Shown here: positions 45,757 through 50,011 of the stretch, piece after piece
Position numbering within the stretch: the stretch's first letter is position 1
Layout: each line of letters begins with the position of its first letter
Assembly (NCBI RefSeq): GCF_025061645.1
Contig: NZ_JANYMP010000013.1
Coordinates: 1 to 64,000 of the forward strand
Direction of reading: 5' to 3'
DNA from: Umezawaea endophytica
Lineage (GTDB): Bacteria; Actinomycetota; Actinomycetes; Mycobacteriales; Pseudonocardiaceae
DNA: 64,000 nt
Translations under genes and position numbers: made by a program
Notes under the pieces: generated by a model
Databases searched by the model: none
What the model saw: only the letters and a program-made list of their open reading frames with translations
Told to the model about the DNA's origin: nothing

Positions 45757-46503
45757 TCAGAAGTGCGTCACCGGGCGGTCCTGCCGCACGCCGTCCAGGA
45801 CGACGTCGACCTTCTCGTCGTAGAACGCGACCAGTCCCGCGATGGGCAGCACGTCCTTGGCGGGGAACGAGTAGCTCCACGCCAGGTCCGGGTGCACGCC
45901 CCTCGGGGTGGTGATCGACCAGTAGTCGGTGGTCGTCCCCTTGTACGGGCACGAGGTCACGGTGTCCGTGCGGGTCAGCACGGAGAAGTCGACGTCGGTC
46001 CGGCTCAGGTAGTACCGGGTCGGCAGCCCGGTCTCGAACACCAGCACCGGCGACGACGACTCGGCGACCACCACACCGTCCAGCTCGACCCGCACCGACC
46101 GCGACGAGCGCAGCGCGTCCACCCGCGTGTACGGGCTGCGCGGGTGCACGAAGACCTGCTCGTCCTCCTCGAACCACAGGTCCAGCGCGGCCCACTCGAA
46201 CCGCACCGAGTCGTGGAAGTCCGCGTAGCGCAGGGCGCTCGACGGCCGGTGCATCCCGCCGACCCGCACGCCGTGGACGTGCGCGGCGCCCCGGCTCGTG
46301 TCGCGGGCGGCGTGCTCGTCGACCAGGAGGTCAGCCCGGACGTCGGCGCGGGGGAAGTAGAACTGCGGGTAGTACGGGTGCTCCCAGACGTAGAGGGCTC
46401 GGGTCGAGTCCACCACGACCTCGTTCGCCAACACCCCCCGAACGCGGCACGGCACGGGCTGGACGTGGTCGACCGGGACGATCGACGCGGGGAAGTGGGG
46501 CAC
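45757..46503 (-). CDS. DUF427 domain protein (tandem)
   Basis: A 248-residue cytosolic protein with two DUF427 units, each with the beta-tent pattern: VDSTRALYVWEHPYYPQFYFP in the first and VVAESSSPVLVFETGLPTRYYL, then CPYKGTTTDYW in the second. The function of DUF427 is unknown. Its ribosome-binding site overlaps the stop of the GlxA-type gene, so it is the second gene of a two-gene operon and may be translationally coupled. Confidence 0.9.
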   Translation of the reverse strand: MPHFPASIVPVDHVQPVPCRVRGVLANEVVVDSTRALYVWEHPYYPQFYFPRADVRADLLVDEHAARDTSRGAAHVHGVRVGGMHRPSSALRYADFHDSVRFEWAALDLWFEEDEQVFVHPRSPYTRVDALRSSRSVRVELDGVVVAESSSPVLVFETGLPTRYYLSRTDVDFSVLTRTDTVTSCPYKGTTTDYWSITTPRGVHPDLAWSYSFPAKDVLPIAGLVAFYDEKVDVVLDGVRQDRPVTHF

Positions 46504-46516
46504 GGGCGGGCCTCCG

Positions 46517-47446
46517 TCAGTTCCGGTGCTGCTCCCGGTACGCGGTCGGGGAGAACCCCAGTCTGCCCGTGAACACCCGGTTCAACGCCTCCTCCCCGCC
46601 GAAGCCGCTGCGCACCGCAGCCACGGCCGGGCTGTGACCGGTCCGCAGCAGCTCCTGGGCGCGGTCGAGCCGCACCAGTTCGACGTACCGCGCCGGGGTC
46701 GTGCCGATCTCGTCGTGGAACAGCCGCGCGAGCTGACGGGAGCTGACGGCCGCCGTGGCCGCCATCCCGGACACGGTGTGCAGCGCCGCGGGATCGGCCG
46801 CGACCGAGTCGAGCACCGCGCGCAGCGGGCTCCCCAGCGGCACGTGGTCCAGCGACTGCACGGAGAACGGGACCCGCGCGCCGGGCCGTTGCAGGAACAC
46901 GACCATCGCCCGCGCGACCTCGACGGCGAACTCCGAGCCGTGGTCGTCCTCCACCATCGCGAGCGCCAGGTCGATGCCCGAGCTGACGCCCGCCACCGTC
47001 ACGAAGTCCCCGTCCCGCACGAAGAACTCGTCCGGCCGCACCGACACCCTCGGGTAGCGCTCGGCGAACAGCGCGGCCCGCCGCCAGTGCGTGGTGGCCG
47101 CGCGGCCGTCCAGCAGACCGAGTTCGGCGAGCAGGAACGAGCCCGTGCACACCGACGTGACGCGGTCCGCCGCCACGGCCAGCAGGCCCGCGGCGTCCAG
47201 GAGCACGGGGTCCAGGCGCACGTCGTGCGCACCGGGGACGAGCACCGTGCCGCCCGGTTCGGCGTCGCGCGCGGCGGAGTCGACGGGCACCGCGAAGCCG
47301 TTGGCCGTGCGCACGTCCGCGCCGTCGGCCGACACCACCTGGAGCACGTAGTCCGCGCCGAAGTGGTTGGCGTGGCCGAAGACGTCCTCCGGTGCCGTGA
47401 CGTCGATCGTCGTCACGCCCTCGAACGCCAGTATCGTCACCAGCAC
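46517..47446 (-). CDS. GlxA-type regulator (DJ-1/PfpI domain plus AraC helix-turn-helix)
   Basis: A 309-residue regulator. The N-terminal DJ-1/PfpI-like domain (about 1-170) has the nucleophile-elbow-like SVCTGSFLLAELGLLDGRAATTHW, a lost or altered active site in this family. The C-terminal AraC domain (about 210-305) contains SSRQLARLFHDEIGTTPARYVELVRLDRA and SGFGGEEALNRVFTGRLGFSPTAYR. It lies 51 bp after the channel gene on the same strand and heads the DUF427 gene. Confidence 0.92.
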   Translation of the reverse strand: MLVTILAFEGVTTIDVTAPEDVFGHANHFGADYVLQVVSADGADVRTANGFAVPVDSAARDAEPGGTVLVPGAHDVRLDPVLLDAAGLLAVAADRVTSVCTGSFLLAELGLLDGRAATTHWRRAALFAERYPRVSVRPDEFFVRDGDFVTVAGVSSGIDLALAMVEDDHGSEFAVEVARAMVVFLQRPGARVPFSVQSLDHVPLGSPLRAVLDSVAADPAALHTVSGMAATAAVSSRQLARLFHDEIGTTPARYVELVRLDRAQELLRTGHSPAVAAVRSGFGGEEALNRVFTGRLGFSPTAYREQHRN

Positions 47447-47497: not shown

Positions 47498-50011
47498 TCA
47501 GCCGAACACGGTTACGTACGTGAGCACCACCCCGAGCAGGTAGAGCGGGTAGCCGACGCGCGCCGCCGTGGTCAGCCTCCGCTCGGCCGCCGCGCGCCGG
47601 GTCGACACCAGCCGCTTGCGCAGCATCGCGATCAGCACGCAGGTCGCGGCCAGTAGGATGAACGCGTAGTACCCCCATTCGAGCGCGACTGTGTAGCTGA
47701 CCGACGGGAGCTGCGAGGTGACGTTGTTGAGCAGCACCGCTGTGCTCAGGATGGCCGTGACGCCCATCGACACCGGGGCGCCGCCGTCGGAGGCGGAGAA
47801 GAACAGCGACAGGTACGTCACGCAGATCAGCAGCACCAGCGGCAGCAGGTTCTTGACCAGGAACGGCACCGTGTCGCGCACGATCTCGACCTCCCCCGCG
47901 TACTGGCTGTAGTAGATCCCGGCCCCGGCGCCCGCGCTGTCGCCGAGCGCGTCGCTGCTGCCGACCGTGCGCTGGAAGAACCGCACCGAGTCCGCCACCC
48001 AGTTGGGGATCTCGTTGATGTCGGCGTTCGCGTCGGCGCCGCTGCGCAGGTAGGCGCTCGGCGGCTGGTCCAGGATCTCCTTGTCCGTCACGTAGACGAC
48101 CTGGTCGGCGGTGCGGCCCCGGTTCTGCAGCAGCACGACGAGCCGCTGGTGGTCGAACGGGAACCCGCGGAACTCGAACCCGCTCTTGAAGCGCTCCCCC
48201 ACCCGGTAGAGCCGGTAGGTGGCCCCGTCCTCGGTCACGTCGCGCAGCGGCTGCCCGAGCTTGAGGTCGGGCTTGACGGCGTTGACGAACTGCACGTCCG
48301 ACGCCACGTGGTCGCCGGTGTACTTGAGCCACAGGAAGAAGTCGACGAAGTACGTGCCGTCCCTGGTGTCCAGGTCGCGCACCTCGTTGAGGTTGATGCC
48401 CGTCGCGACGACCTGGCGGCGGACCAGGTACCGGTCGCCGATCGCGATGACGGTCCCGGCGGCCAGGCCTTCGCGCAGCGCCTCGTCCGACGGCGGCTCG
48501 TAGATGGTCAACTGGACCGGCGCGGACACGAACCGGGACCCGTCGCTGGTCACCACGGACACCGACATCCGCGCCGATCCCGTCGGCGAGAAGTACAGCG
48601 GGCCGAGCAGCGCCGGGAACGAGTTCTTCCGGTCCTTCAACGCGGCCCACCCGTCGCGCACCCGCAGCCGGTCCGCGGCCCGCTGGTCCGGCGCGAAGCT
48701 CAGCCCCCGGCCGGTCATGACGTGCAGGCCGACGTTGAGCGCCTGCCGCGCCGTCGCCGCCTGCCACAGCGGCTTCTCCCCGTACCGCAGCTCGTAGTCC
48801 TCGGCCCACGTCAGCGCGGGCCCGGACAGCGCGTCGTTCGCCAGCGGCGTGCTGACGTACAGGTCCGAGGTCAGCAGCCCCGGACGGTCCAGCTCGCGCT
48901 CGGCCGCGGCCAACGCGTCGTGGAACGCCTGCGTGCCAAGGGAAGCGACGCCCAGCACCGGTGCCGTGATCCCGGCGGTCCGCAGCCGCCGGAGCACGGC
49001 GACAGCGCGGTCGACGTCCGTCGCCAGCACGATCGGCGCCACCGGGTCGATCCTCCCGAGGTCCACCGTGGAGCGGTCGATCGGCGTCTCCGCCACGACG
49101 TCCCCGAACTGCCGGAAGGACTCGGCGAACGACTCCCGCACGGACCGCCCCGACTCGTCCTCGTCGTAGACCACCTGCGCCTTCGCGGACTTGAGCACGT
49201 CGGCGGCGTAGGCGGCCAGGAAGTCCGACTGCGTGCGGTTGCCGAACATGCTGCGGAAGTACCAGTCGCTCCCGTCGGTGACGCGCGACGACCCGGCGGA
49301 CGGCGTGATCGCCGGGATGCGCGCCCGCAGGTAGATCGGCGCCGCCGCCAGTGCCGTGTCGCTGCTCCCGTGGCCCACCACGTACATCACCCGGTCCTCG
49401 CGGACGATCCGCTCGGCGATCTCCTCCGCCTTCGCCACCTCGTCCTCGTCGTCGTAGACGAGCAGCTCCACCGGGTGCCCGTCGACACCGCCCGCCGCGT
49501 TCACCACGTCCAGGTGCATCCGCAGCCCGCGCTCCATCGCGACCGAGCCCGGCTTCGCCATCCCCGCCACCAGCGCGACGAACACCGGCTCCCCGCCCTG
49601 CCCACCCGACGCCGAGTACGCGCCGACCACCGTCAGCAGCACGGCCACCGCCGCCACCAACGCGGCCCACGCCCCGCGCCGCCGCGGCTTGCCGACGACC
49701 TCCGGCCGCGGCGGCTCCACCAGGTCCTCGACCTCGCGCGGCGGCGTGGGCTCGACACCCCCCAACACCTTCCGAGCCCTGCCGGTCGCCGGGTCGGCTT
49801 CGATCGCGAACGCCCGGTCCAGGCAGAACACCCGCTCCGCGGGCTCCTCGACCAACTCGGCCAACCACCGCCACGCGGGCTCGTAGCCCACGTCCTTCGC
49901 CAACGCCCGCCCCAGCAGCTCACGCGCGCCCGCCGGATCCGTCGCGCGGGCCGCGAGCGCCCGGTGGGTGAGCGCTGCCGGTGTGTCGGGTGTGTCGGGT
50001 GTGTCGGGCAC
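47498..50011 (-). CDS. Type I periplasmic-binding (LIVBP) domain fused to a pentameric ligand-gated ion channel
   Basis: An 837-residue membrane protein, likely a cation or anion channel gated by a ligand. Order from the GTG at 50011: a PDT microrepeat and TPR-like helices (about 1-90), one membrane helix (113-133), a complete LIVBP-type binding domain (142-507; GLRMHLDVVNAAGGVDGHPV, ALAAAPIYLRARIPAITPSA), and a pentameric channel module. Its beta domain (522-712) has TYFVDFFLWLKY and the family hallmark FPFDHQ (617-622); M1 is near 716-739 (LVKNLLPLVLLICVTYL), M2 747-767, M3 772-796 (SQLPSVSY joins M2 to M3) and M4 818-836. No disulfide Cys-loop, as in prokaryotic members. GGAGG precedes the start. 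Automated annotation would probably call it an ABC binding protein. Confidence 0.87.
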   Translation of the reverse strand: MPDTPDTPDTPAALTHRALAARATDPAGARELLGRALAKDVGYEPAWRWLAELVEEPAERVFCLDRAFAIEADPATGRARKVLGGVEPTPPREVEDLVEPPRPEVVGKPRRRGAWAALVAAVAVLLTVVGAYSASGGQGGEPVFVALVAGMAKPGSVAMERGLRMHLDVVNAAGGVDGHPVELLVYDDEDEVAKAEEIAERIVREDRVMYVVGHGSSDTALAAAPIYLRARIPAITPSAGSSRVTDGSDWYFRSMFGNRTQSDFLAAYAADVLKSAKAQVVYDEDESGRSVRESFAESFRQFGDVVAETPIDRSTVDLGRIDPVAPIVLATDVDRAVAVLRRLRTAGITAPVLGVASLGTQAFHDALAAAERELDRPGLLTSDLYVSTPLANDALSGPALTWAEDYELRYGEKPLWQAATARQALNVGLHVMTGRGLSFAPDQRAADRLRVRDGWAALKDRKNSFPALLGPLYFSPTGSARMSVSVVTSDGSRFVSAPVQLTIYEPPSDEALREGLAAGTVIAIGDRYLVRRQVVATGINLNEVRDLDTRDGTYFVDFFLWLKYTGDHVASDVQFVNAVKPDLKLGQPLRDVTEDGATYRLYRVGERFKSGFEFRGFPFDHQRLVVLLQNRGRTADQVVYVTDKEILDQPPSAYLRSGADANADINEIPNWVADSVRFFQRTVGSSDALGDSAGAGAGIYYSQYAGEVEIVRDTVPFLVKNLLPLVLLICVTYLSLFFSASDGGAPVSMGVTAILSTAVLLNNVTSQLPSVSYTVALEWGYYAFILLAATCVLIAMLRKRLVSTRRAAAERRLTTAARVGYPLYLLGVVLTYVTVFG

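Follow-up and report, generated by a model that had tools for sequence, protein, structure and literature searches.

In the 64,000-nucleotide stretch of Umezawaea endophytica DNA analysed here (the window), one reading frame was originally predicted to join a type I periplasmic-binding (PBP-I) domain of the LIVBP kind to a Cys-loop-superfamily channel. This raises the question of whether such a fusion is real and, if so, whether the binding domain gates the pore of a pentameric ligand-gated ion channel (pLGIC). LIVBP-type domains are also carried by other membrane receptors, the iGluRs and class C GPCRs, whose membrane domains are unrelated and which are dimeric or tetrameric rather than pentameric.

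A binding domain and a channel in one protein

The frame lies at window positions 47498-50011 on the minus strand, starts with GTG, and is intact over 837 residues. Its start region is common to the homologues and an upstream in-frame extension is not conserved in them, so the start chosen by the earlier reader was adopted. The gene and its parts are as follows (evidence in parentheses).

47498..50011 (-), complete gene, 837 residues plus stop, in the order TPR-like segment, membrane anchor, PBP-I domain, pLGIC extracellular domain, four membrane helices (orthologues, dN/dS)
49757..49981 (-), residues 11-85, predicted cytoplasmic TPR-like helices, YEPAWRW...ERxFCL (model helices, weak TPR_19/TPR_14 matches, profile)
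49619..49675 (-), residues 113-131, membrane anchor TM0 with RRR before it, predicted N-terminus in (hydropathy)
48491..49591 (-), residues 141-507, type I periplasmic-binding domain of the LIVBP kind (Pfam, model, profile)
47873..48472 (-), residues 514-713, pLGIC extracellular beta-sandwich, or ECD (model and profile stretch to the GLIC ECD)
48146..48163 (-), residues 617-622, FPFDHQ, the Pro-loop at the Cys-loop position, without cysteines (alignment)
47504..47872 (-), residues 714-836, four-helix pore domain, M1-M4, or TMD (Neur_chan_memb, four helices in the model)
47714..47782 (-), residues 744-766, pre-M2 and M2, pore lining (glycine-receptor M2 alignment, family alignment)

The motif SQLPSVSY, at residue 766, also falls within the M1-M4 region. 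Orthologues with 47-77% identity are present in several genera, and dN is lower than dS in every domain of the window gene, which confirms that the fusion is a real gene and not a chance frame. Constraint is strongest in the ECD and TMD (dN/dS of ~0.27 and ~0.18, respectively, in the comparison with locus L003), and the PBP-I domain evolves faster. The chance that two adjacent genes have been joined by a sequencing error or a misread frame is negligible: the fusion is uninterrupted in independent genomes of several genera, and in every homologue, of both pore types described below, only a few residues separate the PBP-I domain from the ECD.

According to the original prediction, Pfam models for both halves should match within this one protein. 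Peripla_BP_6 (residues 150-488, E = 1.7e-32), ANF_receptor (E = 5.7e-9), and Neur_chan_memb (residues 723-795, E = 7.6e-9) do match it, all above the Pfam curated cut-offs, and Neur_chan_LBD does not. Neur_chan_LBD also stays below its cut-off on the ordinary bacterial pLGICs L018 and L019, so the model is insensitive to this branch and its silence says little. The NCBIfam LIC model matches the window protein (E = 8.6e-10), and the Pfam MS_channel beta-domain is absent from it.

A family-only profile (A2; 12 members, ECD and TMD only) was searched against the PDB and matched the ECD and the TMD of GLIC-type channels separately; its top match was a GLIC-glycine receptor chimera (E = 2.6e-18). 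A broader profile (A5), made from the family and other bacterial pLGICs, covered nearly all of GLIC, ELIC, and GABA-A chimeras (E = 1e-38 to 1e-43). The model of residues 513-837 (mean pLDDT of 82) has four pore helices and superimposes on GluCl with a Z score of 22.7 (285 residues, 3.0 A) and on GLIC with a Z score of 22.1; Foldseek matched it to GluCl with an E value of 4.7e-19. Since the alignment behind this model includes other pLGICs, the evidence from the family-only profile is more independent. The model, which uses a deeper C-terminal alignment, replaced a full-length model from close homologues only, in which the PBP-I domain and TPR-like segment were good and the ECD was below a pLDDT of 50.

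Across 23 aligned channels, the Pro of the Pro-loop is invariant. Its Asp, a Trp in the ECD, and the Arg before M1 are almost always kept; the Asp and the Arg (R712 in the window protein) are each present in at least 90% of these sequences. The Cys pair that flanks the loop in animal receptors is absent from the window protein, and prokaryotic members generally lack it (PMC549065). Based on the Neur_chan_memb match, the profiles, and the Z scores of ~22 against GluCl and GLIC, we conclude that the channel half is a true pLGIC, with a homologous beta-sandwich and four-helix pore. The resemblance of the C-terminal part to a pLGIC, on which the original prediction was to stand or fall, therefore survives, and the presence of a PBP-I domain and a Cys-loop-superfamily channel in one protein is borne out by profile, model, and conservation.

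Like GLIC and ELIC, the window protein has an ECD followed by four membrane helices and lacks the Cys-loop disulfide. Unlike them, it carries a PBP-I domain, an anchor, and a TPR-like part, and its ECD lacks the loop-A stretch with W-x-P. The animal GluCl, glycine, and GABA-A receptors are among the closest TMD matches and provide the best fold match, but the window protein has neither their Cys-loop disulfide nor their long M3-M4 loop, and it carries a PBP-I domain in addition. DeCLIC is likewise a prokaryotic pLGIC with extra N-terminal extracytoplasmic domains, but its lobes are calcium-binding beta domains rather than a PBP-I fold (PMC12664993, PMC9897478).

In the alignment with the glycine receptor, the window M2 keeps the standard pattern (-1' Ala, 0' Pro, 2' Ser, 6' Thr, 9' Leu), and there is no acidic residue at -1' or -2'. 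The pattern of anion channels is A-[RK] (PMC549065), and the pre-M2 reads PAR in a distant actinobacterial metagenome-assembled genome (MAG; L036) and AAK in an alphaproteobacterial protein (L076). On these residues, anion permeability is the favoured prediction for the family. The window protein itself has Pro at 0' where anion channels have Arg or Lys, so that its own presumed anion selectivity is weakly supported.

The binding domain and the cytoplasmic segment

Both the model and the Peripla_BP_6 match give the binding domain a two-lobed, LIVBP-like PBP-I fold. The model superimposes on LivK (3td9) with a Z score of 37.9 over 338 aligned residues and on LivJ with a Z score of 37.5, and the PBP profile matches LIVBP (1z15) with an E value of 1.4e-24. 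In LIVBP, the backbone of the bound amino acid is held by Ser79, Thr102, Tyr150, Tyr202, and Glu226. The window protein retains the first of these as S217, the Thr102 position is Gly, Ser, or Thr among the homologues, and the Tyr150, Tyr202, and Glu226 positions differ in the window protein. Because this clamp is incomplete, the pocket does not have to accept an amino acid and may bind something else or nothing. Inspection by eye of the reading frames that flank the gene in the window showed no recognisable ABC permease or ATPase gene.

The partial clamp, the faster evolution of the PBP-I domain relative to the ECD and TMD, and the occurrence of the same ECD in ordinary bacterial pLGICs that have no PBP would all suit a true pLGIC in which the agonist site lies in the beta-sandwich, between subunits, and the PBP-I domain only modulates or assembles the channel, as the amino-terminal domains of iGluRs do. 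However, the domain is intact in all 14 actinobacterial loci, with invariant residues throughout its length in the alignment, and it and the ECD move together as a unit, even onto a different pore. We consider the modulatory role rather unlikely, although it deserves serious weight, and we lean toward a subunit in which a solute that closes the PBP-I domain gates the pore through the ECD.

Residues 11-85 form confident helices in the model (pLDDT of ~90). TPR_19 is found in 11 of the 12 members (best E = 1.2e-4), and the TPR_19 and TPR_14 matches are weak but recurring. A single hydrophobic helix (residues 113-131) preceded by arginines indicates that the N-terminus is in the cytoplasm and that each subunit crosses the membrane five times. 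No A-x-A cleavage motif after the anchor is conserved across the homologues; this and the conserved 70-residue segment before the helix disfavour a cleaved signal peptide in the window protein. The cytoplasmic N-terminus and five passes of the original prediction are thus supported, with cleavage of the anchor judged from sequence only. The tether between the anchor and the PBP-I domain is 11 residues long, a length that would place the PBP-I domains beside the ECD and not on top of it.

The TPR-like segment is present in every pLGIC-type actinobacterial locus, including the distant L036, and in the window's own genome, which has one pLGIC, its one copy is on the channel protein only. This retention could point to a receptor, tethered to the membrane, that signals mainly through the cytoplasmic segment and not by ion flow. 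The pore domain is, however, the most constrained part of the protein and its M2 pattern is standard, which makes such a receptor very unlikely.

Distribution of the pLGIC-type proteins

The gene is carried by 12 of 200 Pseudonocardiaceae genomes, the window's own included. Of the other copies, nine have 65-77% identity and two, more distant, have 49%. A scan of the order found it in Pseudonocardiaceae only, and one copy (L022) is a decayed remnant. What is left of it (G151, Pseudonocardiaceae) is the beginning of the TPR-like segment and, in another frame, a piece of M2-M3. At the phylum level, there were matches in 3 of 396 genomes, of which one is the window's own and two have pLGICs of the ordinary kind that lack a PBP. 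L018 and L019 are ordinary short pLGICs from two small Actinomycetota genomes (about 1.5-1.7 Mb).

A scan of genome contigs detected 40 loci, which are 14 of the pLGIC type (13 from Pseudonocardiaceae and L036) and 26 with an MscS pore. The pLGIC-type genera are Umezawaea, Saccharothrix, Lentzea, Solihabitans, Amycolatopsis, Actinokineospora, and others. By profile, the TPR-like segment is present in 14/14 pLGIC-type loci and 0/26 MscS-type loci. L076, the one alphaproteobacterial PBP-pLGIC found in this analysis, combines a PBP-I domain, ECD, and pLGIC pore; its start resembles an ordinary signal peptide, and it lacks the TPR-like segment. No relative was found on viral contigs, and no PBP-pLGIC covering the query was found on plasmids.

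No operon partner of the pLGIC type is shared across genera, and thus no neighbour hints at a pathway. In the window, a GlxA/AraC-type regulator and a DUF427-like gene (both named by eye; 45757-47446, minus strand) lie on the same strand 51 bases downstream, and even Umezawaea tangerina does not share them.

The same sensor pair on an MscS pore

Whether this architecture had been described, a question that the original prediction left open, is answered by Tasneem et al. (2005), who reported PBP-I domains N-terminal to prokaryotic pLGICs (ART-LGICs) in M. magnetotacticum and B. japonicum (PMC549065). Those proteins likewise have the PBP-I domain before the pLGIC ECD and membrane domain, but they are alphaproteobacterial and were described with a signal peptide, whereas the window protein is from Actinomycetota and has a TPR-like cytoplasmic segment and an anchor. 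The 2005 search was done with the LBD only, and the membrane helices were predicted generically (PMC549065). In Paramagnetospirillum marisnigri, the PBP-ECD protein (L058) has an MscS pore, and the other ECD match (L081) is an ordinary pLGIC; the Magnetospirillum case of 2005 may therefore need re-reading as MscS-type, a suggestion that comes from L058 and L081 and not from the 2005 sequence itself. L081 was found by the ECD profile, whereas PF02932 matched nothing in the P. marisnigri genome; used for a census, PF02932 misses divergent bacterial pLGICs.

Proteins encoded on Azospirillum plasmids have a PBP-I domain, then an ECD-like domain, and then an MscS channel (MS_channel_2nd, E = 4.2e-18 and 3.5e-15).

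L014:3812-6880, PBP-I, pLGIC-type ECD, and MscS (MS_channel present, Pfam)
L015:3737-6943, PBP-I, pLGIC-type ECD, and MscS (MS_channel present, Pfam)

The 26 MscS-type loci (L037-L062) belong to Pseudomonadota, and their hosts are Azospirillum, Paramagnetospirillum, Magnetococcales, Pacificispira, and a Thiotrichales MAG. These proteins share the contiguous PBP-ECD pair of the window protein but have an MscS pore and lack both the Pro-loop motif and the TPR-like segment. In B510, one such protein is annotated as an ABC transporter substrate-binding protein. A divergent alphaproteobacterial protein (L075) also has PBP-I, ECD, and MscS parts, with a tail that resembles, by eye, a cyclic-nucleotide-binding domain.

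In hhalign, the MscS-type ECD matches the pLGIC ECD profile with a probability of 99.4 (E = 1e-21, 129 columns). Searched against the PDB, the MscS-type ECD profile found nothing at E values up to 1, so the kinship of this domain rests on its link to the PBP-pLGIC family. A tree of the PBP-ECD pair splits the pLGIC set from the MscS set at 100/99, and in a tree with ordinary pLGICs as the outgroup, the MscS-type ECDs fall inside the PBP-pLGICs. The branch that supports this placement is at 88/81, which makes a single pore exchange from a pLGIC ancestor likely rather than shown. The retention of the PBP-ECD pair as a fixed block on two pores suggests that the junction carries the signal.

Genes for a type I secretion ATPase and an HlyD adaptor adjoin 22 of the 26 MscS-type loci, which suggests a functional link with type I secretion. 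In most Azospirillum these genes lie upstream, and in Paramagnetospirillum and Magnetococcales they lie downstream. The L014 plasmid copy also adjoins a gene for a giant protein with VCBS domains.

We tentatively propose, at slightly below even confidence, that the PBP-I domain and pLGIC-type beta-sandwich are a portable sensor cassette that would drive two unrelated pores: a Cys-loop pore in Actinomycetota and in some Alphaproteobacteria, and an MscS pore in Azospirillum, magnetotactic bacteria, and others, where it would be tied to type I secretion. The proposal includes a pore exchanged once, ligand sensing in the PBP-I domain and not at the classical subunit-interface site, and an MscS-type identity for the Magnetospirillum "PBP-I pLGIC" of 2005. 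No description of a PBP/pLGIC-ECD/MscS fusion, or of actinobacterial pLGICs, was found in the open-licence literature.

We consider it moderately probable that the window protein is a pLGIC subunit of Pseudonocardiaceae that works as follows. Each subunit would have a small cytoplasmic TPR-like domain, a single anchor helix, a LIVBP-type domain outside the cytoplasm that runs straight into the beta-sandwich, and four pore helices, and by homology five subunits would form the pore. A small solute would close the two-lobed binding domain, the closed domain would move the adjoining beta-sandwich, and the Pro-loop, pre-M1, and M2-M3 contacts would relay this movement to the gate. Anions would presumably then flow through the pore, giving a rapid reaction to the solute, and the TPR-like domain probably docks a cytoplasmic partner or aids assembly. 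Gating or modulation of the channel by a nutrient-type module, as originally proposed, is plausible, but the pocket does not imply that a nutrient amino acid is the ligand.

To us, the new items are an actinobacterial PBP-pLGIC subfamily with a cytoplasmic TPR-like segment, a kind of fusion known in itself since 2005, and, more surprisingly, the same sensor pair on a mechanosensitive-type (MscS) pore. No PBP-bearing pLGIC was among the solved structures matched, and we know of none that has been recorded from. Because the ligand domain is soluble and separately expressible, gating of a pentameric pore by a distal domain becomes directly testable. The sensor pair on an MscS pore is a natural domain swap across two pore types, and it suggests that gating modules move between channel superfamilies.
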